Source: an uncultured Rhodospirillales bacterium (GTDB lineage: Bacteria > Pseudomonadota > Alphaproteobacteria > ATCC43930 > CGMCC-115725). From it: a stretch of DNA of 46,925 bases. Numbering within the stretch: position 1 is the first letter of the stretch; every line of letters begins with the position of its first letter. The position numbers were made by a program, and so were the translations under genes. Below the pieces are notes generated by a model. It ran no database searches and was not told where the DNA came from. It saw nothing but the letters and a program-made list of their open reading frames with translations. Positions 18,689 to 29,590 of the stretch are shown here, piece after piece. The DNA lies in contig CAIXXC010000322.1 of NCBI GenBank assembly GCA_903923205.1, forward strand, positions 1 through 46,925. The letters are read 5' to 3'.

Positions 18689-19538
18689 CTGCCACATCGA
18701 GCATACGGCGTGCCGCCTTAAGGTGCGGCACGTCGAACATCTTGCCATCTATTGAGACCGAACCGGCACCGCTCTCAAACGCTGCAACCACGCGCTGCGC
18801 GAAGGCAATCTCCGTCGCGGTTGGGGTAAAGGCCTCGTTGATGATCGGGATCTGGTCGGGGTGGATCGCGATCTTGCCGGTAAAGCCATCGTACCGCGCC
18901 ATCTCCGCACTCTTGCGGCAGCCCTCCGGGTCCCGGAAATCAACGAAGACCGTATCCATGACAGCCACTTCCATGGCGTGGGCCGCGAACAGGCACTGGT
19001 TGCGCACCTGATGATAGGCCGGACGCCACGCGCCATCAGCCTGGCGTGGATCGCCCGCACCGATCGCCGAGCTCAGATCTTCCGCACCCCAGATCAGGCC
19101 GACTACGCGCTCCGGCCGCTTCGCCGCGAGACCAGGCATGTTCATGATGATCTGTGGCGTCTCCGTCGCAATCGCCAGGATCTTGATGGAACCCTCCACA
19201 AGACCGGCCATTGATTCGGCCATGCTCAGATAATTCTGGACCGTCTCTACATCCTGACGGTCGCGGATTTTCGGCAGGAGAATCCCTTTGGGTGCCACCT
19301 TGACGACGCAGGCGAGATCGCGAAGCAACTCGCCCGAGGTCAGGTCGTTAACACGGACCCATAGTTCCGACTCAGCGTTGTAGGTTTTGGCGAACTCGAT
19401 CAGCATCTCGCGACCGACGGCCTTGCGCGCGGGGAGCACGGCGTCTTCCAGATCAATGGCCAGTGCATCGGAGCCGGCCGCGACAGCCTTGACGAGCTTG
19501 CGCTCGCTGTCGGCCGGTACAAACAAGAGTGTCCGCAT
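18675..19538 (-). CDS. CitE-type HpcH/HpaI aldolase family CoA-ester lyase
   Basis: 287 residues of the citrate lyase beta / malyl-CoA lyase family: RTLLFVPADSERK, SDALAIDLEDAV, LWVRVND, IATETPQIIMN and GLIWGAEDLSSAIGA, which carry the Arg and the Mg-binding Glu and Asp expected of the family. Reactions in this family cleave or form 3-hydroxy-diacid CoA esters such as malyl-CoA, methylmalyl-CoA or citramalyl-CoA. It is encoded convergently with the hydratase-2 operon, six bases away. GAGGG precedes ATG. In this locus it may cleave a beta-hydroxy dicarboxylyl-CoA left after ring opening, which would deal with branch carbons that block beta-oxidation. That assignment is inference. Confidence 0.85.
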   Translation of the reverse strand: MRTLLFVPADSERKLVKAVAAGSDALAIDLEDAVLPARKAVGREMLIEFAKTYNAESELWVRVNDLTSGELLRDLACVVKVAPKGILLPKIRDRQDVETVQNYLSMAESMAGLVEGSIKILAIATETPQIIMNMPGLAAKRPERVVGLIWGAEDLSSAIGAGDPRQADGAWRPAYHQVRNQCLFAAHAMEVAVMDTVFVDFRDPEGCRKSAEMARYDGFTGKIAIHPDQIPIINEAFTPTATEIAFAQRVVAAFESGAGSVSIDGKMFDVPHLKAARRMLDVAEKRR

Positions 19539-19885
19539 TATTCCCTCGGAAATTATCTGGTTGTCAGTGCGGCGCCAGTATTACCCTCACCCGAGCGAGA
19601 GGGGTATGGGGTTCTTTCGCCGACACCGACGGAAGAAGTGGCGCGCGGTGGTTTGGAGAGCATTTCAACATTCCCGAGCGCAGAACGTCGAAAATGACCG
19701 GCTTCGCCCGCGCGCACTGTGGCTTCGGTATCCACGACGACGAATTTCGGCGTTCCTTCAATCGATTGCCGATTGAAACGCTTGCCCCACGGGACATCTT
19801 TGCCAGACAATGCAGGTGTGACGATCGGTACAGACGCGCGCCTGCGTCACGCTTAGGAAACGGACATGATCCTCGGGGCCAGGCA
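19539..19885. other. Divergent leader region between the lyase gene and divL
   Basis: 347 bases. It is open in the divL frame but shows no coding character: the translated sequence is Arg/Cys-rich and unlike any protein I know. It should contain promoters for both the CitE-type lyase (minus) and divL (plus). A well-spaced AGGAAACGG before ATG 19866 opens a 12-codon frame that runs over the divL start and stops at 19904. This could be a small leader peptide, or a sign that a one-base error hides a divL start there. Confidence 0.45.
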
Positions 19886-22213
19886 TTGCTCTTCCAAGGT
19901 CTAAGCATCGCCCTCGCCCTGGGGCTGCTGGTGCTGATGTCCGCGCTGACAAGGGCGCGGCGCCGGTACAAGGACGCCCGCGCTCAAGCCGTCTTGCTGA
20001 CAACCGTCGTCGGAACGGTTCCGGGTTGTTTTTATCAGATCCAAGGAGCCCAGGCACGGCGCGTCGATCGCACGCATGGCAGCAGCCTATGGCCGACGGA
20101 CCTGCATGATCTGATCGTGCACCTCGACCACACGGATGAGGTGGTATTGGAACATGCCATGCTGGCGCTCAGCCGCGATGGCCAAAGCTTTGCACTCCGC
20201 TTCCCATGCCGGTGGGGCCGAACGGATAACGAACCATCATTATTGCTCGATATCACTGGCAATCGTGTCACCCCGGCCCTTGATCGACTTCATCACGAGC
20301 GTGCGTCCACGATAGGCATTAGCAGCTGGATCGATCTCATCTGGGTATCGGATGTCTCGGATCGCGCTGCGGCCTCGGCCGAGAGCAGCAAGATGGCTGC
20401 GGAACTAAGGCGCTTGAAGACCACTGTAGACCATGTGCCACTGACGCTCTGGTGGCGCGATAGCGACCTGAAGATCATTGACCGAAACCGATCGGAGGCC
20501 GAGGTCCTGCCGCTCACCGTGCTGGCCGAACCTCTGGCGCGCGCGGCCGCCGCGGATGGCCCCGAAGCGGTCGAGCGTAAGATCGTGGCATCCCCCTTCA
20601 ACGCCAATTCCAGTATCGAACTGCGGGAAATCTCTTTGCTCGGTGGTGAGCTTCTTGGCATTGCCGTCGATCGCCGCGAAGTAGATGGCGTCCAGGCCGA
20701 GCTGGATCGTCTGATTTTGGGTCACCGGCAGGTTCTGGAAACTGTCAGCACGGCGATCGCGATCTTTGGCCCCGATACCCACCTGATGTTCTACAATTCG
20801 GCCTTCACGGTGCTCTGGGGGCTAGAGAGAGAGTACCTCAACACAGAACCGAGTCTCGCGAACCTGCTCGATACCCTGCGCGAGAACCGGACGTTGCCGG
20901 AATATGCGGACTATCGGCAGTTCAAGGCCGATCAGGCCGCGTTGGTTTCCACCCTCAAGTCCCCGCAACAGGAATTGATGCACCTGCCGGACGGCAGGAC
21001 CATCGACTGCAAGATCAGCCGTCATCCCTTCGGGGGCTTGACCTTCATTTATGATGACGTGACCGGCAGTCTCGACCTTGAGCGCTCCTACAACACGCTG
21101 ATCGCGGTGCAACGCGAGACGATCGATAATCTATTCGAGGGGATCGCAGTGTTCGGCAGTGATGGTCGCCTGACCCTCTGGAATCCTGCCTTTGCCGAGA
21201 CCTGGGGCGTCAGCGCGGAAGACCTTGAATCACGCCCCCATATCACCGCTCTGGTCGATCGGGCGCGCGCACTCTTCGACCTCGGCACAGGTTGGGACAG
21301 CGTCCGTAACGGATTGATCCTGCCGGTCACGTCTTATGCCGCCCATACCAGCCAGCTCGAACGCCGTGATGGCAGAGTATTCAAGGTCCATGGCGTCCCA
21401 CTACCGGACGGCAACATGCTGATGACCTACCAGGACACGACCGACTCATACCGCGTCCGGCGCGCGCTTGAGGACCGCTATGCGGCTCTCGAGGAGGCTG
21501 CCAAGCTCAAGAGCGAGTTCGTCGCCAATGTTTCCTATGAACTGCGGACGCCGCTTAACGCGATTATCGGCTTTGCTGAAATCCTCACCAACCAGTTTTT
21601 CGGAGCGCTGAACGAGCGCCAACTCGACTATAGTCATGGTATCCTGGATGGCTCACATCGGCTCCTTGCGCTGATCAACGACGTGCTTGATCTGGCGACG
21701 ATCGAAAGTGGCCGTATGGCGCTTGATATTGCGCCGATAGACGTCCACGCGATGCTGGCCGGAATATTGTCGCTGACGCGGGAGCGGATCGGGGCCTTGC
21801 CGATTGAGGTCGATTTCGACTGCCCGACAGATATCGGGATGATCGAGGGCGATGAGCGGAGGGTCCGTCAGGTCCTGTTCAACCTGATCTCCAATGCGCT
21901 GAAATTCACGCCTAAGACAGGCCTGATCTCGATCTCCGCCAAGAGAGTCGATGACGAGATCGGCATCACCATTGCCGATAACGGGATCGGTATCCCACGC
22001 GAGGATCAAAAGCGCGTTTTCGAGAAGTTCGAACGCAGCCGCAGCCGGGGCGAGCAGTCTGGACCGGGCCTTGGTCTACCCCTGGTCAAAAGCTTCGTCG
22101 AACTCCATGGCGGTCATATCGATCTCGTCTCAGACCCGGGCCAAGGTACCGCGATAACCTGCTGGCTCCCAATCAACCATCCGGCTGACGTCGAGGAAAT
22201 GCCCGAAAACTAA
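19886..22213 (+). CDS. divL: DivL-like tyrosine pseudo-histidine kinase, cell-cycle regulator
   Basis: From the TTG start the protein is 775 residues, close to Caulobacter DivL (769). There is an N-terminal membrane segment (GLSIALALGLLVLM), several PAS-like modules (FGPDTHLMFYNSAF; IAVFGSDGRLTLWNPAF), then a HisKA domain reading EFVANVSYELRTPLNAI. Tyr551 stands exactly where kinases have the phospho-accepting His, as Tyr550 does in DivL. The ATPase domain is intact: NLISNALKFTP, DNGIGIP, GPGLGLPLVKSF. DivL sits at the inner membrane, senses DivK and tunes the CckA-ChpT-CtrA relay. Longer starts at 19529 exist but add 119 residues with no protein-like character. The last codons and stop lie inside a terminator hairpin. 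The genomic island begins immediately after it. Confidence 0.87.
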   Translation: MLFQGLSIALALGLLVLMSALTRARRRYKDARAQAVLLTTVVGTVPGCFYQIQGAQARRVDRTHGSSLWPTDLHDLIVHLDHTDEVVLEHAMLALSRDGQSFALRFPCRWGRTDNEPSLLLDITGNRVTPALDRLHHERASTIGISSWIDLIWVSDVSDRAAASAESSKMAAELRRLKTTVDHVPLTLWWRDSDLKIIDRNRSEAEVLPLTVLAEPLARAAAADGPEAVERKIVASPFNANSSIELREISLLGGELLGIAVDRREVDGVQAELDRLILGHRQVLETVSTAIAIFGPDTHLMFYNSAFTVLWGLEREYLNTEPSLANLLDTLRENRTLPEYADYRQFKADQAALVSTLKSPQQELMHLPDGRTIDCKISRHPFGGLTFIYDDVTGSLDLERSYNTLIAVQRETIDNLFEGIAVFGSDGRLTLWNPAFAETWGVSAEDLESRPHITALVDRARALFDLGTGWDSVRNGLILPVTSYAAHTSQLERRDGRVFKVHGVPLPDGNMLMTYQDTTDSYRVRRALEDRYAALEEAAKLKSEFVANVSYELRTPLNAIIGFAEILTNQFFGALNERQLDYSHGILDGSHRLLALINDVLDLATIESGRMALDIAPIDVHAMLAGILSLTRERIGALPIEVDFDCPTDIGMIEGDERRVRQVLFNLISNALKFTPKTGLISISAKRVDDEIGITIADNGIGIPREDQKRVFEKFERSRSRGEQSGPGLGLPLVKSFVELHGGHIDLVSDPGQGTAITCWLPINHPADVEEMPEN

Positions 22214-22230
22214 GACTTTCGGGCTTTTTC
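22201..22230 (+). terminator. Rho-independent terminator of divL
   Basis: GCCCGAAA (22201-22208) pairs perfectly with TTTCGGGC (22217-22224) and is followed by TTTTTC. The left arm lies within the last codons of divL and the stop codon is in the loop. It also marks the left edge of the island. Confidence 0.85.
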
Positions 22231-22271
22231 ATTGACCCCGTGATTTCAGCGGGTTAGAGTGCCCGTAAGAT

Positions 22272-22841
22272 ATGACCGAAACGCACCCTCAAAATCGACG
22301 CCTTGGCTATGCCCGCGTCAGCACCTACGGCCAGACGCTCGACGCTCAGCTTGAGCAGTTGAAGACGGAGGGGTGCGCCAAGATTTACCGCGAGAAGGCG
22401 AGCGGGGCGAAAGCAGACCGCCGCGAGCTTCTGCGGATGTTGAAAGACCTGAGCCCCGGCGACGTGGTGACGGTGACGCGAATTGATCGCCTCGCCCGCT
22501 CGACCTTCGACCTCTTCGCGATCGTCAAGCAGATCGTGGACGCTGGCGGCCAGTTCCGATCGCTGGCCGAGCCTTGGGCGAACACATCCACCAGCACCGG
22601 CCGCCTGATGATCGCTGTGCTTGGCGGCATGGCAGACGTAGAGCGCGACCTTATCCGCACGCGCACCGCCGAGGGACGGAGCCGCGCCAAGGCGCGAGGG
22701 CAGCACATGGGCCGCCCCCCTGCTCTCACCCCTGACCAGCAGGCCGAGGCCAGGCAGCGCCGCGCCGAAGGTGCGACGCTCAAGGAGTTAGCGCAGAGCT
22801 ACAACGTCGGCCGGGCGACGATTTCGAGGCTGGCAGTATGA
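22272..22841 (+). CDS. Serine recombinase (resolvase/invertase family)
   Basis: 189 residues. The catalytic domain starts LGYARVSTYGQTLDAQ with the nucleophilic Ser, followed by DRLARSTFDLF and GGMADVERDLIRTRTAEG (the E-helix). After GRPPAL comes a short helix-turn-helix (LKELAQSYNVGRATISRL) that would bind the crossover site. Size and layout match Tn3-type resolvases and Hin-type invertases. The stop TGA overlaps the ATG of the following HEPN gene (ATGA), so translation is coupled. No transposase and no obvious inverted site were seen. It could be a remnant of the element that brought the island, or a working part of a resolvase-HEPN unit. Confidence 0.92.
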   Translation: MTETHPQNRRLGYARVSTYGQTLDAQLEQLKTEGCAKIYREKASGAKADRRELLRMLKDLSPGDVVTVTRIDRLARSTFDLFAIVKQIVDAGGQFRSLAEPWANTSTSTGRLMIAVLGGMADVERDLIRTRTAEGRSRAKARGQHMGRPPALTPDQQAEARQRRAEGATLKELAQSYNVGRATISRLAV

Positions 22842-23878
22842 GCATGACAGGAAATGCCGGCGGCGGAAATTCCGTGATGTGGATCGACGACGGCGAAAAA
22901 TACGGGCTTGTTGGCTTAAGCGTCAAAGTTGATGGGATCATCACACAGGGAAAGATTTCGTCCAACCTTTGGGTTTTGGCCGACACGGCGTTTGCTATTC
23001 CTTCAAATTGGCGAGACTGGCTCGGCAGCATCCGCGTAGGTGAGGTTCAAGACTGCAATTTAATCCTTCTCAGCAAACAGCCTTCTTCGACACCCGACAT
23101 TCTTGATGGTGAAAACAATAAGCTGAAGCAGCACGCTTGGAATTTCTATGTGGGGCTTTTGCTCGCGAGCAGATTTGCGCCCGCACATAGGCCGGTCATG
23201 CTGACGGGCGTTCGCCGTGACGGAGAAATCGATATCCGTCAGCAGCAGGATTTGGACTCCCCGATCCCTTGCATCTTCCGGCCGTATCCGGCGGTTCTGT
23301 CGGAGCATATCCACCTGGCGGCGCAGCTCGGGGAGAATCTTGGCGCATTGGCCACGGCACCACTGCCTGACGGGCATTGGCGTTTATTCCGTACCTTGCA
23401 CGTTTACACGGAATCGCGCACGACCGGCGAAATTGTTGACCGTCTCCACCAGTATAGTCGGTGCATCGACGGGTTGATCCTGCCTGACGCGGGCAAGACC
23501 AAACAGCAGTTCAAGAGCCGCACCGAACTCTTCATCGGTTCCCGGCATCACGACTTGATGGGCGAAATTTATGATGTGCGAAGCGCCGTCGAGCATCTTC
23601 ACGAGAACCGATATTTGGACGGCTTCGACCGTGAAACACGCCTCGATCTTCTGAGGAAGGAAGCTATTGTCGAGCACATCGCGCGGACGGCACTGGCGAG
23701 GATCATAGGCGACAGCGCCCTATGGCCGCATTTCGCGAACACGCCAGCCCTTGCAAAATTCTGGGCACTGCCAGCGGCCGAGCGGCAGAAAATTTGGGGC
23801 GCTCCGATCGATCCAATGGCAGCTATTGCGGACCTCGACCCAAAATATATTCATGACGGGCTTTTAGGTGCGCCATGA
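22838..23878 (+). CDS. HEPN-motif protein, ApeA-like, function unproven
   Basis: 346 residues with no signal peptide or membrane segment. The stretch IGSRHHDLMGEIYDVRSAVEHLHENRYL contains R248-SAVE-H253, an Rx4H motif as in HEPN ribonucleases. It lies in an IYDxRSxxxH context resembling the Apea-type HEPN domain of ApeA anti-phage proteins. The N-terminal ~200 residues resemble nothing I recognise with confidence. ATGA overlaps join it to the resolvase upstream and to the second HEPN gene downstream. Lower GC than the chromosome suggests transfer. A role in RNA cleavage during phage defence is plausible by association with restriction genes, but this is inference. Confidence 0.7.
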   Translation: MSMTGNAGGGNSVMWIDDGEKYGLVGLSVKVDGIITQGKISSNLWVLADTAFAIPSNWRDWLGSIRVGEVQDCNLILLSKQPSSTPDILDGENNKLKQHAWNFYVGLLLASRFAPAHRPVMLTGVRRDGEIDIRQQQDLDSPIPCIFRPYPAVLSEHIHLAAQLGENLGALATAPLPDGHWRLFRTLHVYTESRTTGEIVDRLHQYSRCIDGLILPDAGKTKQQFKSRTELFIGSRHHDLMGEIYDVRSAVEHLHENRYLDGFDRETRLDLLRKEAIVEHIARTALARIIGDSALWPHFANTPALAKFWALPAAERQKIWGAPIDPMAAIADLDPKYIHDGLLGAP

Positions 23879-24461
23879 ACGCTCATAATATGACCCACCG
23901 TGACCTCATGCGCCGTGTAGTTTTGCTTTGTTCGAGTTTCGCTCGGAACCTAGCTTTTTATCGCGTTGGGCAAGATGATGCCTTCAGGCGGTTGCTTTTG
24001 CCGTCGCATCCGGCGGCTTCATTTTGGCGGCAAGCGAACAGCAATTTTCTCGATGTTGCCGTTTTAGAGTGGTGCAAGCTTCTCGGCGACAAGAAAGGAA
24101 AGCACTATTGGAGCCGAGCGGCTTCCGATAGCTCCGCTTTTGAAAGCAGGCTCTTGACCACATTCAAATGTCACGGGCCAATTTTGACAAATACATCGCG
24201 GAAATGCGCGATTATCGGGACAAGTTTGTCGCCCATCTCGACCACGATCATACGATGCAAATTCCAATGCTCGACACTGCCCATGCGTCAGTGTCTTTCT
24301 ACCATGCTCACCTTGTGACCAATGAGGTTCAGCTAGGCGAGCTAGCCGGGTTTGGCGTCGATACCCCGGACAAATTCCGTCTGGGATATGAGCAGTGCGT
24401 TGCGGAGGCTAAGGCCACGCTGACCTACGCCCTCAACGAGCTCACGCCGCCCGCTCTTTGA
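23875..24461 (+). pseudogene. Second HEPN-type protein (AbiU2-like), interrupted by a -1 frameshift
   Basis: Two frames must be joined to read one protein of about 195 residues. The first (from ATG 23875) gives FLDVAVLEWCKLLGDKKGKHYW and runs well to LLTTFK. The second frame takes over at 24168 with SRANFDKYIAEMRDYRDKFVAHLDHD and continues to TGA 24461. The -1 change falls in CAAATG around 24166-24168. The joined protein has R115-DKFVA-H121, an Rx5H HEPN motif in the RDKFVAHLD context of AbiU2-like HEPN proteins. The site is not a standard slippery heptamer, so a one-base deletion (real or a sequencing error) is more likely than programmed frameshifting. It overlaps the first HEPN gene by ATGA, and its 3-prime end overlaps the methyltransferase gene by 20 bases. 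Confidence 0.68.
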
Positions 24462-26022
24462 ACATTTCGCCCTGGGATGGCGGGCGATGTTCGGCTTCTG
24501 GCAGCAGAGCGGCGATAGCTTCGGCCGGCACGTTGGCAAGCTCTTTCGGTTCCATTTTGTAGAGGCCGCCACCATAAACGCGCCCTTCGCCGAGCAAGGT
24601 TGCCGCGTCGATTCCGCTCAGAAATTCCCACACCTTGCGGCCGAGTGCGTGATCAGCCGCGAGTGCCCTTGCAAGCTCTGGCTTCGGATAAAGCAGCAGA
24701 TACACGTTGGCGGCCGTTGCCTGTGACCGGTTCAGGATGAACCGGAAAGGCTTCTCTCGCTTCGCCAGGTTGCGGCCCATATAGGTGCAGATGAAGGGTG
24801 CGGCCGGCCGGTTCTCTTGCGCATACCAGGGCGTGCGACGGCTACACAGGTAGGTTTCCGCGACCGTGGCTTTCCCGGTTTGGAGATAGGCCCACAGCGC
24901 CGGATGGCGTGCTTCAACCTCGCCTTCCGGCAAGCGGCAATCGAGGATGAACAATTGCCGCGCCAGCTTTGGCGTCCCGTCGGGATCTGCCTCGATGATA
25001 TCGGTTTCGAGATACCGGGGGCCGGGCAGAATCGGCTTGAAGAACTTCATCGGTAGGCCATGCGCGGCGATTTGCTCCCGCGTCATGATGAAAAAGCTGT
25101 TGTCGCCTGTTGCCAGGCCCCGCTTGATGTCGAAAAAGTCCGCGAGGCGCAGCCCTTCCGTTATGGCGCGCACGCCGTCTGCGGCGAGGCTGGTCCACTT
25201 GGCAGCACCTTGCAGAGCAGACAGCGGCACCATGCGCGAGAGCTTCGGTTTCGCCAGTGTGCCGCCATACGAGAATTCGACCTGATGCTCGGCCGGGGCT
25301 TTCCGTTTGCGGAACCACACCACGGCCGAGGACACGAGAGCGTCGCCGAATTGCAGTTCGCTCGGATCGAAGCGGTGAATGCGGACGAGCTCGACCTGGT
25401 TGAGCAGATACCGCTTCACCGGCACCCCGTAATTGACATCCATGAACTCGCTCGGGATCAGCCAGCCGGCTAAGCCGTCCGGCTCCATCCATGCGTGCGA
25501 GAGGCCGAGGAAATAACAGTAGAGGCCAGCCAGGCCCGCCATCTGGACCCCGCTTGCGGCAGCAGTTGCCGCGAGAAGGCGGCTCTTGGCCTCCTTGTCC
25601 ATGTGGTGGTGGCGCACATAGGGCGGGTTGCAGATGACGAGATTATAGCCCTTCCCCTCCGTTGGAGGCGTCGCCGTCGTGAAGTCGCCGAGCCGCATAT
25701 CGAGCGGGTGATCGTGCCAGAGCTTGCGCGCAGGCTTCCCATAGTGCGGATCGATTTCAAAGCCGGCGGCGGCTTCGATCCGCCCCTCGTCAAACTCCCG
25801 GAGGAGCGCTGCGTAGAAGGAGCCGGTGCCGATCGCCGGATCGAGGAAGCGCACAGGAGCACCCTGAGGCATTAGCTCGCGTGCGTAGGCGAGCACGTCT
25901 GACGCAAGGCCGGTCGGGGTGGCGAACTGTCCGAGCTTGTTCCGCTCTTTTGCTGTTTTCGCAGCATCGAGCTCGCTTTGCAGGGAAAGGCGACGATCTT
26001 CGAGGGGGGTGACGGCGTCCAT
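24442..26022 (-). CDS. DNA N6-adenine methyltransferase of a XamI-type restriction system
   Basis: 526 residues. QFATPTGLA opens the catalytic domain, motif I is DPAIGTGSF (binds S-adenosylmethionine) and motif IV is NPPYVRHHH, the NPPY hallmark of amino-methyltransferases acting on adenine. The C-terminal ~300 residues form the target recognition part (GLATGDNSFFIMT region). It starts three bases after the restriction endonuclease stop, so the two are co-transcribed, with the endonuclease first. If the partner is a XamI isoschizomer the target is GTCGAC, and the enzyme would methylate the adenine to protect the host. Such sites are frequent in this window, so protection would be essential. 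Confidence 0.88.
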   Translation of the reverse strand: MDAVTPLEDRRLSLQSELDAAKTAKERNKLGQFATPTGLASDVLAYARELMPQGAPVRFLDPAIGTGSFYAALLREFDEGRIEAAAGFEIDPHYGKPARKLWHDHPLDMRLGDFTTATPPTEGKGYNLVICNPPYVRHHHMDKEAKSRLLAATAAASGVQMAGLAGLYCYFLGLSHAWMEPDGLAGWLIPSEFMDVNYGVPVKRYLLNQVELVRIHRFDPSELQFGDALVSSAVVWFRKRKAPAEHQVEFSYGGTLAKPKLSRMVPLSALQGAAKWTSLAADGVRAITEGLRLADFFDIKRGLATGDNSFFIMTREQIAAHGLPMKFFKPILPGPRYLETDIIEADPDGTPKLARQLFILDCRLPEGEVEARHPALWAYLQTGKATVAETYLCSRRTPWYAQENRPAAPFICTYMGRNLAKREKPFRFILNRSQATAANVYLLLYPKPELARALAADHALGRKVWEFLSGIDAATLLGEGRVYGGGLYKMEPKELANVPAEAIAALLPEAEHRPPSQGEMFKERAA

Positions 26023-26025
26023 GGT

Positions 26026-26979
26026 TCAGAGCCCAAATTTGGCGAGATCATCGATGCGATGCTCCCACACCCAATCAATCATTTCGCCAGCCTCGTATCC
26101 GAGATAGCCGCTGTCGAAATATCCGCAGAGGAACAAGATGAATTGCACGCCATTCGGGAATGTATGGCGAAGCTGATTGATCTTTTGCGCTTCCTCTTTC
26201 CGTCGCTTGTTCGTGTTTGTGAAATCCCCGGCGGACTTCGCTTCGATCATGAACGGCAACTCGCCCGGCTTCGCCGTCAGCGGCATGACCGCTGTGTCGA
26301 TCGGGATGTTGATGGTGTTGACGCCACCTTCGACGTTGACCGGCACGTTGAGTCGGAAGCTGTAGGTGCCAGGCGGCATCGCGTTGTATTTGACGCCCTC
26401 GTGAAGTCGCGTGTAGCCCCGCGCTTCCAGCCAGGCCGCGATGGCTGCAAGCTGGCGCTTCTCTTGCGCGTTGCGGATGATCGGATTGGCGACCGCGCCG
26501 CAGAGGCGATCGGCGACGATCGTGGCCGCGCGGTGGACTTCGACTTCCGTGGCGGCCCGAAGCGGTTGGAGCCATACGAAGATATCGGGATCGGCCATCT
26601 TTTCGATGATGGTGCCGATTTTCTCAAGGTCAGCTTGCAGGGCGGACGGTGCCATGCGCGGCGGGAGCGTGCCTTCCTCCATGCAGCCGACGAGATTCTT
26701 CGACACACCGGCCAGACCAACCAGGCGGTCGACCGCAATCGGCGGGCAGGTCGACATGCGCAATGTCGGCAGCACGCCAGGATGTTCGCGGAGGAGCTTC
26801 GCCTTCACATCGCTCAGGTTGGCGGTTTTGTGGAGCGTCTCTTCAACGGCCTTCGTCGTCTTGATCCGCGTGTCGCGGTAGGCAACGGGCGCGAAGGTCA
26901 TGAACCAGTCGTTGTACATATCGACCGACTGCGCAATATCGGCCTTCCAAAGCTGGGGCTGGTTCAAATTAACTGGCAC
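26026..26979 (-). CDS. XamI-family type II restriction endonuclease
   Basis: 317 residues from the GTG start. Segments LWKADIAQSVDMYNDWF, LPTLRMSTCPPIAVDRLVGL, DRLCGAVANPIIRNAQEKRQ and FILFLCGYFDSGYLGYEAGE match what I know of the XamI endonuclease family (recognition GTCGAC). The nuclease core is probably NIPIDTAV followed by MIEAKSAGDFTNTNKRRKEE, an Asp ... Glu-x-Lys arrangement of the PD-(D/E)xK fold. GTG 26979 overlaps the end of the regulator gene by 11 bases. A longer start at 27024 would overlap it by 56 and add non-conserved sequence. The order regulator - endonuclease - methyltransferase implies that timing of expression is controlled, most likely by the small upstream protein. Confidence 0.82.
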   Translation of the reverse strand: MPVNLNQPQLWKADIAQSVDMYNDWFMTFAPVAYRDTRIKTTKAVEETLHKTANLSDVKAKLLREHPGVLPTLRMSTCPPIAVDRLVGLAGVSKNLVGCMEEGTLPPRMAPSALQADLEKIGTIIEKMADPDIFVWLQPLRAATEVEVHRAATIVADRLCGAVANPIIRNAQEKRQLAAIAAWLEARGYTRLHEGVKYNAMPPGTYSFRLNVPVNVEGGVNTINIPIDTAVMPLTAKPGELPFMIEAKSAGDFTNTNKRRKEEAQKINQLRHTFPNGVQFILFLCGYFDSGYLGYEAGEMIDWVWEHRIDDLAKFGL

Positions 26980-27157
26980 GTTTTGACTCTCGATAAAGTT
27001 CCCACATCTCAGCCAGCAGGCCATTCAGAGGAATTTGACGCCGCGCCGCCTCAACCTTGATCGCCTTGGCGATAGGTTTCGGCATCCGGAAACCGATGAT
27101 TTGAGATTCACCCGTCTCTGTCCGTCGTGTCGTCTTCTTCTCTTTCAGTTCGCCCAT
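26969..27157 (-). CDS. Small ribbon-helix-helix-like protein, candidate controller of the restriction operon
   Basis: 62 residues from ATG 27157. After a charged N-terminus (MGELKEKKTTRR) comes IIGFRMPKPIAKAIKVEAARRQIPLNGLLAEMWELY, a strand followed by two helices as in CopG/Arc-type DNA-binding proteins. ATG 27157 is chosen because AGGGG lies eight bases upstream; an upstream ATG at 27190 would translate the two GTCGAC boxes and lacks that signal. It is the first gene of the operon and overlaps the endonuclease start. It probably acts as the regulator or anti-toxin-like partner of the restriction enzyme. The fold assignment is by pattern only. Confidence 0.62.
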   Translation of the reverse strand: MGELKEKKTTRRTETGESQIIGFRMPKPIAKAIKVEAARRQIPLNGLLAEMWELYRESKRAS

Positions 27158-27172
27158 GCGAATCGCCCCTAC

Positions 27173-27186
27173 GTCGACGTGTCGAC
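27173..27186. promoter_or_regulatory. Twin GTCGAC sites in the restriction-modification leader
   Basis: GTCGAC occurs at 27173-27178 and again at 27181-27186, two bases apart, 16 bases upstream of the regulator start. GTCGAC is the recognition sequence of XamI, the family this restriction enzyme belongs to. Binding or methylation here by the operon's own proteins could adjust transcription. Single copies occur elsewhere, so it is the pairing and the position that are notable. Confidence 0.5.
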
Positions 27187-27384
27187 TCATCCTAGGCGAA
27201 TTGGGTTGAATCTCAAAGGCCGGGCTTTCAGGTGTTCATCGAGAATTCCTCGCACTTGGCGCGTCCCACGAAGTGGCGGGCCAGGCTCTAGGTACACCCC
27301 GAGCCGTGAAGAACGTCGCGGCCCATAAACCAAGACTTCCATATCACGGCTGGCTGATCAGGATCACGAATATCGCAGAGGTGT

Positions 27385-28395
27385 CTAAACTGGCACACCG
27401 CGCGTCGTCGAATGCTCGAAGTGCAGGGCTTCACCCGGATGGACGAAGGCGAAGGCGGCATGGGCGGCCTGCGCGGCTTCGGCGAAGCCGGTCAGGATCA
27501 GCTTGAGCTTATGGGGATAGCTGGCGACGTCTCCAATCGCGAAAATCCCCGGGACAGCGGTCGCGCCTGTTGTCGGCTCGATCGGGATTTGGTTGCGCTC
27601 GAGATTGAGCCCCCAATCGGCTATCGGTCCAAGTTCGGTTGAAAGGCCGAAGAACGGCAACAATATGTCCGCACCAAGGACCCGTTCGACACCATCAAGA
27701 TCTCTGACGACGACCTGTTCAAGCTTCCCCGCTTCGCCTCGCAGTGCGTGAAGCTGATAGGGTGTGACCAACTCGATAGCCCCCTCGGCGACCAATTGCT
27801 GGAGGCGGGCGGCACTTTCCGGCGCGGCACGAAACTTCGGCCGGCGATGCACAACCATGACCTTGGCAGCAACCGGGGCGAGCGAGAGCGCCCAATCGAC
27901 GGCCGAATCGCCACCACCCGCGATCACGATTCGCTGATCGCGGAACGCCTCACGGCGGCTGACGAGATAGAAGACGCTTTTCCCTTCGAAGTCCTCGATC
28001 CCGTCGAGCGGCGGTCGGTTGGGGCCGAAGGCCCCGGCCCCGGCCGCAATAATCACGGCTCGGGCGACGACAACGGTGCCGCGCGCGGTCTCAACACGAA
28101 AACGGCCGTCCTCAAGGCGGGTCAAACCGGTCGTTTGTTCGCCCAGATGGTATTGCGGGTTGAACGGGCCGGCTTGCTCGGCTAGGTGACGAACCAGATC
28201 CAGGGCTTCGACGGCGGGGAAGCCTGGCACGTCATAGATCGGCTTTTCCGGATAAAGCGCCGCGCACTGCCCGCCGAGCTCGCTCAAGGCGTCAATGACG
28301 TGGCACTTCATTCGCAGCATGCCGCATTGGAACACGGCGAAGAGGCCTACGGGCCCCGCCCCTATAATGGCGATATCGGTTTCTTGGATGGTCAT
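27385..28395 (-). CDS. Ferredoxin/flavodoxin-NADP reductase (YumC/thioredoxin-reductase-like type)
   Basis: 336 residues. FAD loop IIGAGPVGLFA, GGQCAALYPEKPIYDVPGFP, NADPH loop IAGGGDSAVDWAL and the FAD contact AIGDVASYP. There is no redox-active CxxC, which distinguishes it from thioredoxin reductase and fits the ferredoxin-NADP reductases of the YumC family. It would pass electrons between NADPH and ferredoxin or flavodoxin in the cytoplasm. ATG 28395 starts the fold immediately; an earlier in-frame start at 28452 adds 19 unlikely residues. It is the first chromosomal gene on the right of the island and ends about 230 bases from the regulator start. Confidence 0.9.
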   Translation of the reverse strand: MTIQETDIAIIGAGPVGLFAVFQCGMLRMKCHVIDALSELGGQCAALYPEKPIYDVPGFPAVEALDLVRHLAEQAGPFNPQYHLGEQTTGLTRLEDGRFRVETARGTVVVARAVIIAAGAGAFGPNRPPLDGIEDFEGKSVFYLVSRREAFRDQRIVIAGGGDSAVDWALSLAPVAAKVMVVHRRPKFRAAPESAARLQQLVAEGAIELVTPYQLHALRGEAGKLEQVVVRDLDGVERVLGADILLPFFGLSTELGPIADWGLNLERNQIPIEPTTGATAVPGIFAIGDVASYPHKLKLILTGFAEAAQAAHAAFAFVHPGEALHFEHSTTRGVPV

Positions 28396-28597
28396 GTCTA
28401 TCGCCGCATCGTCTCTCAATGGCCGCACCGCAGAGTTCGCAATGCCGCGCAACCGTACAAGCTTACAGGCTGTGATCCAAGCATTGCGCTGTTATCAATG
28501 CGACCTTTGCAGCACCATCTGGCGCTGCAGTGCGGGAGCACTTATGGTGCCCCGCCGCGACCCTAAACGGCCGCCTTGCCCCCAGTCCTGATGAGTC

Positions 28598-29590
28598 TTG
28601 TCCGTGTCCCTGAAATCACTGCCACTCGATGGCTTTCTTGTCTCCCTCATCGCTGCTGTAGCACTGGCCGCGATCTGGCCGACGCCGGGGATCAGCGGCG
28701 GCGTCCTCCATGTCGATTGGGTGAGCAGCTACGGCATCGCCGTCGTCTTCCTGCTTTACGGCTTGACCCTGTCACCTGAGAAGATGTGGGCGGGCATGGT
28801 GCATTGGCGCCTTCATATGGCTGTTCAGTTGGGTACTTTCGTGCTGTTTCCCGCTGTGATTTTGGCGATAGGCCCGCTTGCCGCGCCCCATCTCCCAGCT
28901 CCGACCTGGACCGGATTCTTCTACCTCGCAGTCCTGCCTTCTACCGTGTCGTCTTCTGTCGCCATGACATCATTGGCCCGCGGCAATATCCCGGCGGCGA
29001 TTTTCAACGCGAGCCTGTCCAGCATAATCGGCGTGTTCATCACCCCGTTGATGATGGCCTGGTATATCCACAGCAGTGGCGGCACCATGCCGCTTGGCCA
29101 TGTCCTGCAGAAGGTCATGCTGCTGGTGCTGTTGCCGATCATCATTGGTCAGGCATTCCATCGCCCCCTGCTCTCCTGGACCGCGCGCCACCTGAAGCGG
29201 ATCAAGCTCGCCGATCGCGCGGTCATCATTGTTATCGTCTATAATTCGTTTTGCGACTCGATCACCGGGGGTGTCTGGTCAACGCGGGATATCGGCCTGC
29301 TGGCGGGTATAGCGATCGGCGTCATCGCCCTGTTCTTCCTCGTCTATGGCCTGATGCATATCCCATGCGCCGTGCTCGGCTTCAATCGCGAGGACCGCAT
29401 CGCCTGCCTCTTCTGCGCGTCAAAAAAGTCGCTCGCCACCGGCGTGCCCCTGGCACGAATCATCTTCGGTGCGACCCCGGCGCTGGGCCAGATCATCGTG
29501 CCGCTGATCCTGTTTCATTTCTTCCAGCTGGTGATCGTCAGCGTCATCGCCGCTCGCTTTGCCCGTGATCCGATCGCAACAAAGGCATAA
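28598..29590 (+). CDS. SBF-type (bile acid:sodium symporter family) membrane transporter
   Basis: 330 residues with nine or ten hydrophobic segments spread over the full length, for example GFLVSLIAAVALAAIW, IAVVFLLYGLTLS and LLAGIAIGVIALFFLVYGL. The segments TVSSSVAMTSLARGN and CASKKSLATGVPLA are typical of the SBF-like/YfeH branch of the BASS family, which lie in the inner membrane and move organic anions with sodium. The start is TTG 28598 or GTG 28604; neither has a good Shine-Dalgarno. The substrate is unknown. Family membership does not show bile acid transport, and the catabolic locus is 9 kb away. Confidence 0.85.
   Translation: MSVSLKSLPLDGFLVSLIAAVALAAIWPTPGISGGVLHVDWVSSYGIAVVFLLYGLTLSPEKMWAGMVHWRLHMAVQLGTFVLFPAVILAIGPLAAPHLPAPTWTGFFYLAVLPSTVSSSVAMTSLARGNIPAAIFNASLSSIIGVFITPLMMAWYIHSSGGTMPLGHVLQKVMLLVLLPIIIGQAFHRPLLSWTARHLKRIKLADRAVIIVIVYNSFCDSITGGVWSTRDIGLLAGIAIGVIALFFLVYGLMHIPCAVLGFNREDRIACLFCASKKSLATGVPLARIIFGATPALGQIIVPLILFHFFQLVIVSVIAARFARDPIATKA

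Follow-up and report, generated by a model that had tools for sequence, protein, structure and literature searches.

A split resolvase site suggests integration of a 5.1-kb cassette carrying HEPN-like and restriction-modification genes in a Rhodospirillales bacterium

Introduction

Why should the gene of a DNA recombinase overlap the gene of a putative ribonuclease? This question is raised by a locus of an uncultured Rhodospirillales bacterium, in which a resolvase gene runs directly into the gene of a 346-residue protein with an Rx4H motif, here called HEPN-A. A second HEPN-like gene (gene 3) and a restriction-modification (R-M) operon follow. An earlier note on this DNA proposed that the recombinase and two RNases are made together as a dedicated anti-phage or plasmid-stability unit. 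We analyzed the whole stretch of 46,925 nucleotides available for the locus (contig CAIXXC010000322.1, in the following termed the window) and compared its genes and their surroundings with those of relatives in genomes, plasmids and viral contigs.

The resolvase gene and its plasmid relatives

The resolvase gene (22272–22841, plus strand) encodes a protein of 189 aa that combines a catalytic domain (Pfam Resolvase, PF00239, 136.7 bits) with a C-terminal HTH_7 domain (PF02796, 34.5 bits). This composition in less than about 220 aa is that of a small serine recombinase of the resolvase/invertase type, and the protein carries the motif Y-A-R-V-S17. The second feature expected of such a recombinase, an upstream recombination site common to its relatives, is present as well, though split in the window. 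The resolvase is predicted to carry out strand exchange at the upstream site. A large serine integrase, which would be expected to comprise about 450–700 aa with recombinase and zinc-ribbon domains, was considered and rejected in view of the length of 189 aa and the HTH_7 C-terminus.

The nearest relatives are encoded on alphaproteobacterial plasmids, with modules found in Acidisoma, Bradyrhizobium, Rhizobium, Shinella and Xanthobacter and identities to the window protein of at most 84%. In most of the plasmid modules examined the next gene codes for a WGR-domain protein, overlapping the resolvase gene in several cases and lying shortly downstream in others. Several modules adjoin replication or partition genes. 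Four plasmids share the upstream site of the window including CAAGACTTTTG. Whereas the plasmid site is continuous and mostly followed by the WGR-domain gene, the window shows a split site followed by the HEPN-A gene, and no WGR gene remnants were found 3’ of the window resolvase. A search of 336 further genomes of the class detected no additional chromosomal copy of the resolvase at E 1e-60 or better, nor was one found in viral contigs. The Bradyrhizobium plasmid pBs1S1c (NZ_CP088286.1, locus L064, 22168 bp) turned out to be a head-to-tail repeat of 11,084 bp containing its genes twice, so that the record shows a resolvase plasmid left as a dimer or else results from faulty assembly.

Boundaries of the block and the split recombination site

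The resolvase, HEPN-A, gene 3 and the XamI-type R-M genes lie together between a histidine kinase gene ending at 22213 and a gene for an NAD oxidoreductase ending at 27385, which are 5.2 kb apart. Five genomes from four other genera of the family have these two genes as convergent neighbors at a distance of 9–327 bp. Removal of the block would bring them to about 50 bp from each other, inside the range observed in the relatives. In the one further genome available for this genus the NAD oxidoreductase gene has another neighbor, and no closer empty site was found. The block ends are marked by direct repeats of AAGACTT at 22212 and 27332. This heptamer occurs three times in the 46.9 kb: the only two copies on the plus strand are those at the block ends, the third lies on the other strand. 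Synteny, direct repeats and the split site described below together delimit an integrated cassette of 5,120 bp including one repeat copy (22212–27331), to which no strand is assigned. A Tn3-family transposon, which would be expected to have a tnpA transposase and terminal inverted repeats flanked by a 5-bp target duplication, was rejected as an explanation, since no transposase is found among the ORFs of the block and the 7-bp direct repeats coincide with the split recombination site.

DNA similarity to the plasmid modules extends past the start of the resolvase gene back to position 22212 in three plasmids and to 22204 in the fourth, defining a shared upstream site of about 60 bp. Position 22212 is the best match within the window to the 63-nt site of the four plasmids (43–48 of 63 positions identical, next best 31–32). 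To the left of this stretch all four plasmids carry a further arm of the site, which ends in TCAAGACTT. Left of 22212 in the window this arm is replaced by kinase coding sequence, and the left junction (22202–22274, plus strand), as defined by the site match, is composed of a chromosomal half-site (22202–22211), AAGACTT and the right part of the resolvase site. The left arm of the site was found at the opposite end of the block: the right junction (27322–27338, plus strand) contains CCCATAAACCAAGACTT, the best of 93,818 17-mers. In comparison to the four pooled plasmid arms it agrees in 56 of 68 letters, the next best position reaching 48; fourth place is taken by the kinase half-site at 22202. 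When searched before pooling, the plasmid left arm also matched best at 27322, with a single tie. Joining the block ends rebuilds a plasmid-like site; the putative palindrome center is weak (7–9 of 14).

A promoter-like sequence, TTGACC-17-TAGAGT (22232–22260, plus strand), is located in the site, with 11 bp between it and the start of the resolvase gene. It is weak by itself, and the region of the site matching it is conserved upstream of the plasmid resolvases. The left junction can additionally be read as a kinase gene terminator of the intrinsic type (22201–22224, GCCCGAAAACTAAGACTTTCGGGC-TTTTT) with an 8-bp stem and a stability of -12.8 kcal/mol, half of it chromosomal and half derived from the cassette. 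A search of positions 19000–29000 against Rfam returned nothing.

The repeats of the site are in direct orientation, predicting excision and integration, and no inverted site pair was found. The suggestion made earlier that an invertase controls expression at this locus does not agree with this arrangement. Since the site is split, the repeats are direct and the flanking genes are adjacent in related genomes, we propose site-specific integration of a circle. We hold it at roughly two chances in three that the block is a non-replicative cassette of 5.1 kb, formerly circular, integrated by means of its resolvase and carrying HEPN-A as a stand-alone RNase.

Two other origins of the block were weighed. 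A plasmid fragment might have been inserted by illegitimate or homologous recombination, the resolvase being a passenger and the AAGACTT copies coincidental. That the block contains no replication gene, that the repeat comprises just 7 bp and that this is the single case found, neither the 336 further genomes of the class nor the viral contigs that were searched having yielded a second integrated copy, would all fit such an event. It leaves unexplained, however, why the far end bears the left arm of the resolvase’s own site, and the near end begins where homology to the plasmid site begins, a point at which random breakage is unlikely to have split it. We regard this origin as unlikely. Alternatively, the resolvase might serve multimer resolution only and might be, together with the R-M genes, the relic of an integrated plasmid, with HEPN-A as a later and unrelated arrival. 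The closest homologues are indeed plasmid resolvases, several of them near replication or partition genes, and base composition differs between the resolvase (66% GC) and HEPN-A (55.4%); gene 3 has 53.0% and the window 61.3%. The lower GC content that the earlier note had attributed to all three genes is thus confined to HEPN-A and gene 3. A plasmid relic is nevertheless quite improbable given that the block is devoid of rep and par genes, that one and the same site defines both ends and that HEPN-A lies inside them.

HEPN-A, a rare HEPN-like protein

The HEPN-A gene (22838–23878, plus strand) starts within the resolvase gene in an ATGA overlap, confirming this part of the initial description. 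Its product of 346 aa contains the motif R248-S-A-V-E-H253. Ten relatives with 38–75% identity to the window protein were collected from four genome contigs, a Bradyrhizobium plasmid, one further genome of the class and four viral contigs. In an alignment of the window protein with nine of them (A4, 10 sequences) R248, S249, V251, E252 and H253 are invariant, and the same five residues remain so when the fourth viral sequence is added (A5). A chance occurrence of the Rx4H motif, which had been considered, is unlikely with this conservation. Conserved Rx4-6H with a polar residue after the arginine corresponds to the HEPN motif; the residue in this position is typically N, D or H (PMC3710099), but S in HEPN-A.

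Structure prediction with AlphaFold2 placed R248–H253 in a helix (235–254) of a helical C-terminal region, with a pLDDT of 86 and a pTM of 0.87. A first model based on five close sequences had reached a pLDDT of 53, which rose to 86 upon addition of the distant relatives from viral contigs. Foldseek comparison of the model with the PDB and with viral models yielded nothing significant; among HEPN structures 2hsb came closest, with a TM-score of 0.49 at a probability of 0.41, below significance. Neither did the sequence profile match the PDB significantly. The window protein has no match in Pfam, NCBIfam or PADLOC, none of the 10 members matched a HEPN Pfam model, although weak matches such as MauJ appear in some relatives, and no match was detected in annotated phage records. 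Profile-profile comparison of HEPN-A with gene 3 revealed no similarity. Assignment as ApeA was rejected because the ApeA N-terminal domain and the Apea_HEPN Pfam models are absent. HEPN-A likely belongs to the HEPN superfamily.

We inspected the neighborhoods of the relatives within a few kb of each match, by eye and mostly from unannotated ORF lists, counting the very similar viral sequences L056 and L057 once, which leaves nine independent relatives. One is part of a plasmid island together with AbiEii, CBASS, AbiV and HEPN/Toprim genes. Others adjoin AbiEii-like, tyrosine-integrase-like or mobile-element genes, and the remaining ones have viral-contig genes or plain chromosomal genes as neighbors. 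The invariant Rx4H motif in the C-terminal helical region and these defense and mobile-element contexts make an RNase defense gene a reasonable reading, HEPN-A most likely being a stand-alone abortive-infection RNase as predicted from sequence. The earlier expectation of anti-phage RNases can be retained to this extent, but not for gene 3, whose frame is broken.

Two relatives are directly followed, on their own strand, by the gene of a conserved protein of 178 aa (L005:9060-9596 and L006:11009-11545). It has no Pfam match, one copy is annotated as ‘methionyl-tRNA formyltransferase-like’, and an IEVKS stretch resembles a PD-(D/E)XK nuclease. HEPN-A and this protein may represent a possible two-gene variant. 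Three relatives (L056–L058) stop less than 20 bases short of the terminus of a predicted viral contig, pointing either to a location of the gene at the edges of prophages or to trimming of the contigs where genes end.

Gene 3 is interrupted by a frameshift

Downstream of HEPN-A we noticed an AbiU2-like HEPN gene with a frameshift (gene 3, 23875–24461, plus strand), delimited by the alignment of its relatives and a HEPN_AbiU2 score of 15.0 bits. Its N-terminal part (23875–24318, 147 aa) overlaps HEPN-A in a second ATGA, as described before. This overlap joins HEPN-A to a remnant without the motif RDKFVAH, however, as the motif is encoded in the C-terminal part (24168–24461, 97 aa) in another frame. 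Each of the five relatives examined is encoded by one continuous ORF of 185–190 aa, located on plasmids of Burkholderia, Cupriavidus and Paraburkholderia or, in one case, in a genome belonging to the class of the window. A relative of 189 aa spans both pieces, aligning with residues 10–78 in frame 1 and with residues 99–180 in frame 3, and the frame breaks between the positions aligned to its residues 78 and 99. Because the relatives are intact and one of them aligns across two successive frames of the window, we consider gene 3 broken. The interruption reflects either a real mutation or decay, or an error in the draft assembly of 541 contigs. In the HEPN_AbiU2 model the C-terminal part scores 15.0 bits and the intact relatives 20.1–21.4 bits at a cut-off of 26.8. 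Gene 3 was not accepted as AbiU2, as the Pfam score is under the gathering threshold and the reading frame through Rx4-6H is not intact.

A functional defense or plasmid-stability unit of resolvase, HEPN-A and gene 3, whose co-transcription would be predicted from the two successive ATGA overlaps on one strand behind a promoter-like site, is very improbable and largely refuted by co-occurrence data, as a serine recombinase adjoins none of the nine HEPN-A relatives, neither HEPN-A nor a serine recombinase was found beside the five gene 3 relatives examined, the close plasmid resolvases have other neighbors and gene 3 is frameshifted. The earlier note had itself named the case in which homologues never occur beside a serine recombinase as evidence against a conserved coupling, and for HEPN-A this is the situation encountered (0 of 9). 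We read the ATGA overlap of resolvase and HEPN-A as the place where a mobility gene meets its cargo, and not as the sign of a conserved association.

The restriction-modification pair

The adjacent R-M operon was correctly recognized before. It consists of a XamI-family restriction endonuclease (26026–27024, minus strand; PF09572, 377 bits; PADLOC REase_II, 358 bits from residue 18) and an Eco57I-class DNA methyltransferase (24442–26022, minus strand; PF07669, 47.8 bits; PADLOC MTase_II, 491 bits). With endonuclease and methylase adjacent on one strand the pair represents a XamI type II R-M system. The true start of the endonuclease is probably a GTG near 26973. An ORF of 62 aa (26969–27157, minus strand; MGELKEKK...MWELYRESKRAS) lies upstream of the endonuclease gene and overlaps its start. 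Inspection of the translation by eye suggests that it possibly encodes a ribbon-helix-helix regulator, which may control the R-M operon.

The same order, a XamI endonuclease and then a methylase of the Eco57I class or N-6 type, is found on several plasmids. Four of these plasmid loci were examined and have no serine recombinase nearby, whereas in the window the R-M pair lies in the cassette and is oriented convergently to the HEPN genes. HEPN domains have been reported in association with R-M systems, and ApeA, AbiU2 and other HEPN defense proteins share with the window the Rx4-6H motif and the location of HEPN genes within or beside R-M operons (PMC3710099). They differ in that HEPN-A matches no HEPN Pfam model and gene 3 is below cut-off and frameshifted.

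Discussion

How could such a block have arisen? According to the integration model the circle would once have carried the resolvase gene with its site, HEPN-A, the AbiU2-like gene and the XamI-type R-M operon. Acting as integrase, the resolvase would have recombined the site of the circle with a pseudo-site located in the chromosome where the histidine kinase gene has its 3’ end, and the reverse reaction could excise the cassette. The resolvase is thus probably the mover of the cassette and not a partner of the RNase. Since HEPN-A lies downstream on the same strand and the site contains a promoter-like sequence, both genes are probably co-transcribed from within the site, and binding of the resolvase may repress both. 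HEPN-A would act as a metal-independent RNase with the Rx4H dyad, halting translation or growth after phage infection, and the R-M pair would provide an independent defense.

Two known systems resemble parts of this scheme. The integrase of the filamentous phage phiRSM is a resolvase-like serine recombinase that targets a tRNA-Ser gene, with phage and host sites sharing a 13-bp identity (PMC4471427). The use of such an enzyme as integrase, as proposed here, and the short site identity are shared with the window. In phiRSM, however, the element is a phage with a tRNA-Ser target and demonstrated activity, while the window contains defense cargo, a target at the end of a kinase gene and a plasmid-type resolvase whose activity is inferred. 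In Res-hunting insertions and the resolution systems of SGI1 (PMC12217951) breakpoints are also found at the res site upstream of a resolvase gene. There an integron gene cluster enters the res site, whereas the block described here has no transposase and contains the resolvase gene itself. In the literature searched we found no report of a cassette of this type. It is tempting to extend the model to a whole class of small non-replicative defense cassettes, for which plasmid-type resolvases and their res sites would be full integration and excision modules, with the adjoining cargo transcribed from a promoter in the site and its expression governed by resolvase binding and integration state; at present we consider this generalization doubtful.

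HEPN-A constitutes a rare HEPN-like family that reaches no threshold in Pfam, NCBIfam or PADLOC and occurs in phage contigs and one plasmid defense island. For the locus as a whole, the data suggest that a plasmid multimer-resolution module serves as integrase as well, acting on a pseudo-site in the chromosome. This suggests a route by which R-M and HEPN defense genes may move without a transposase, a tyrosine integrase or a large serine integrase. A block whose two ends each bear one part of a res site would be a simple signature of such movement that can be searched for in all genomes.
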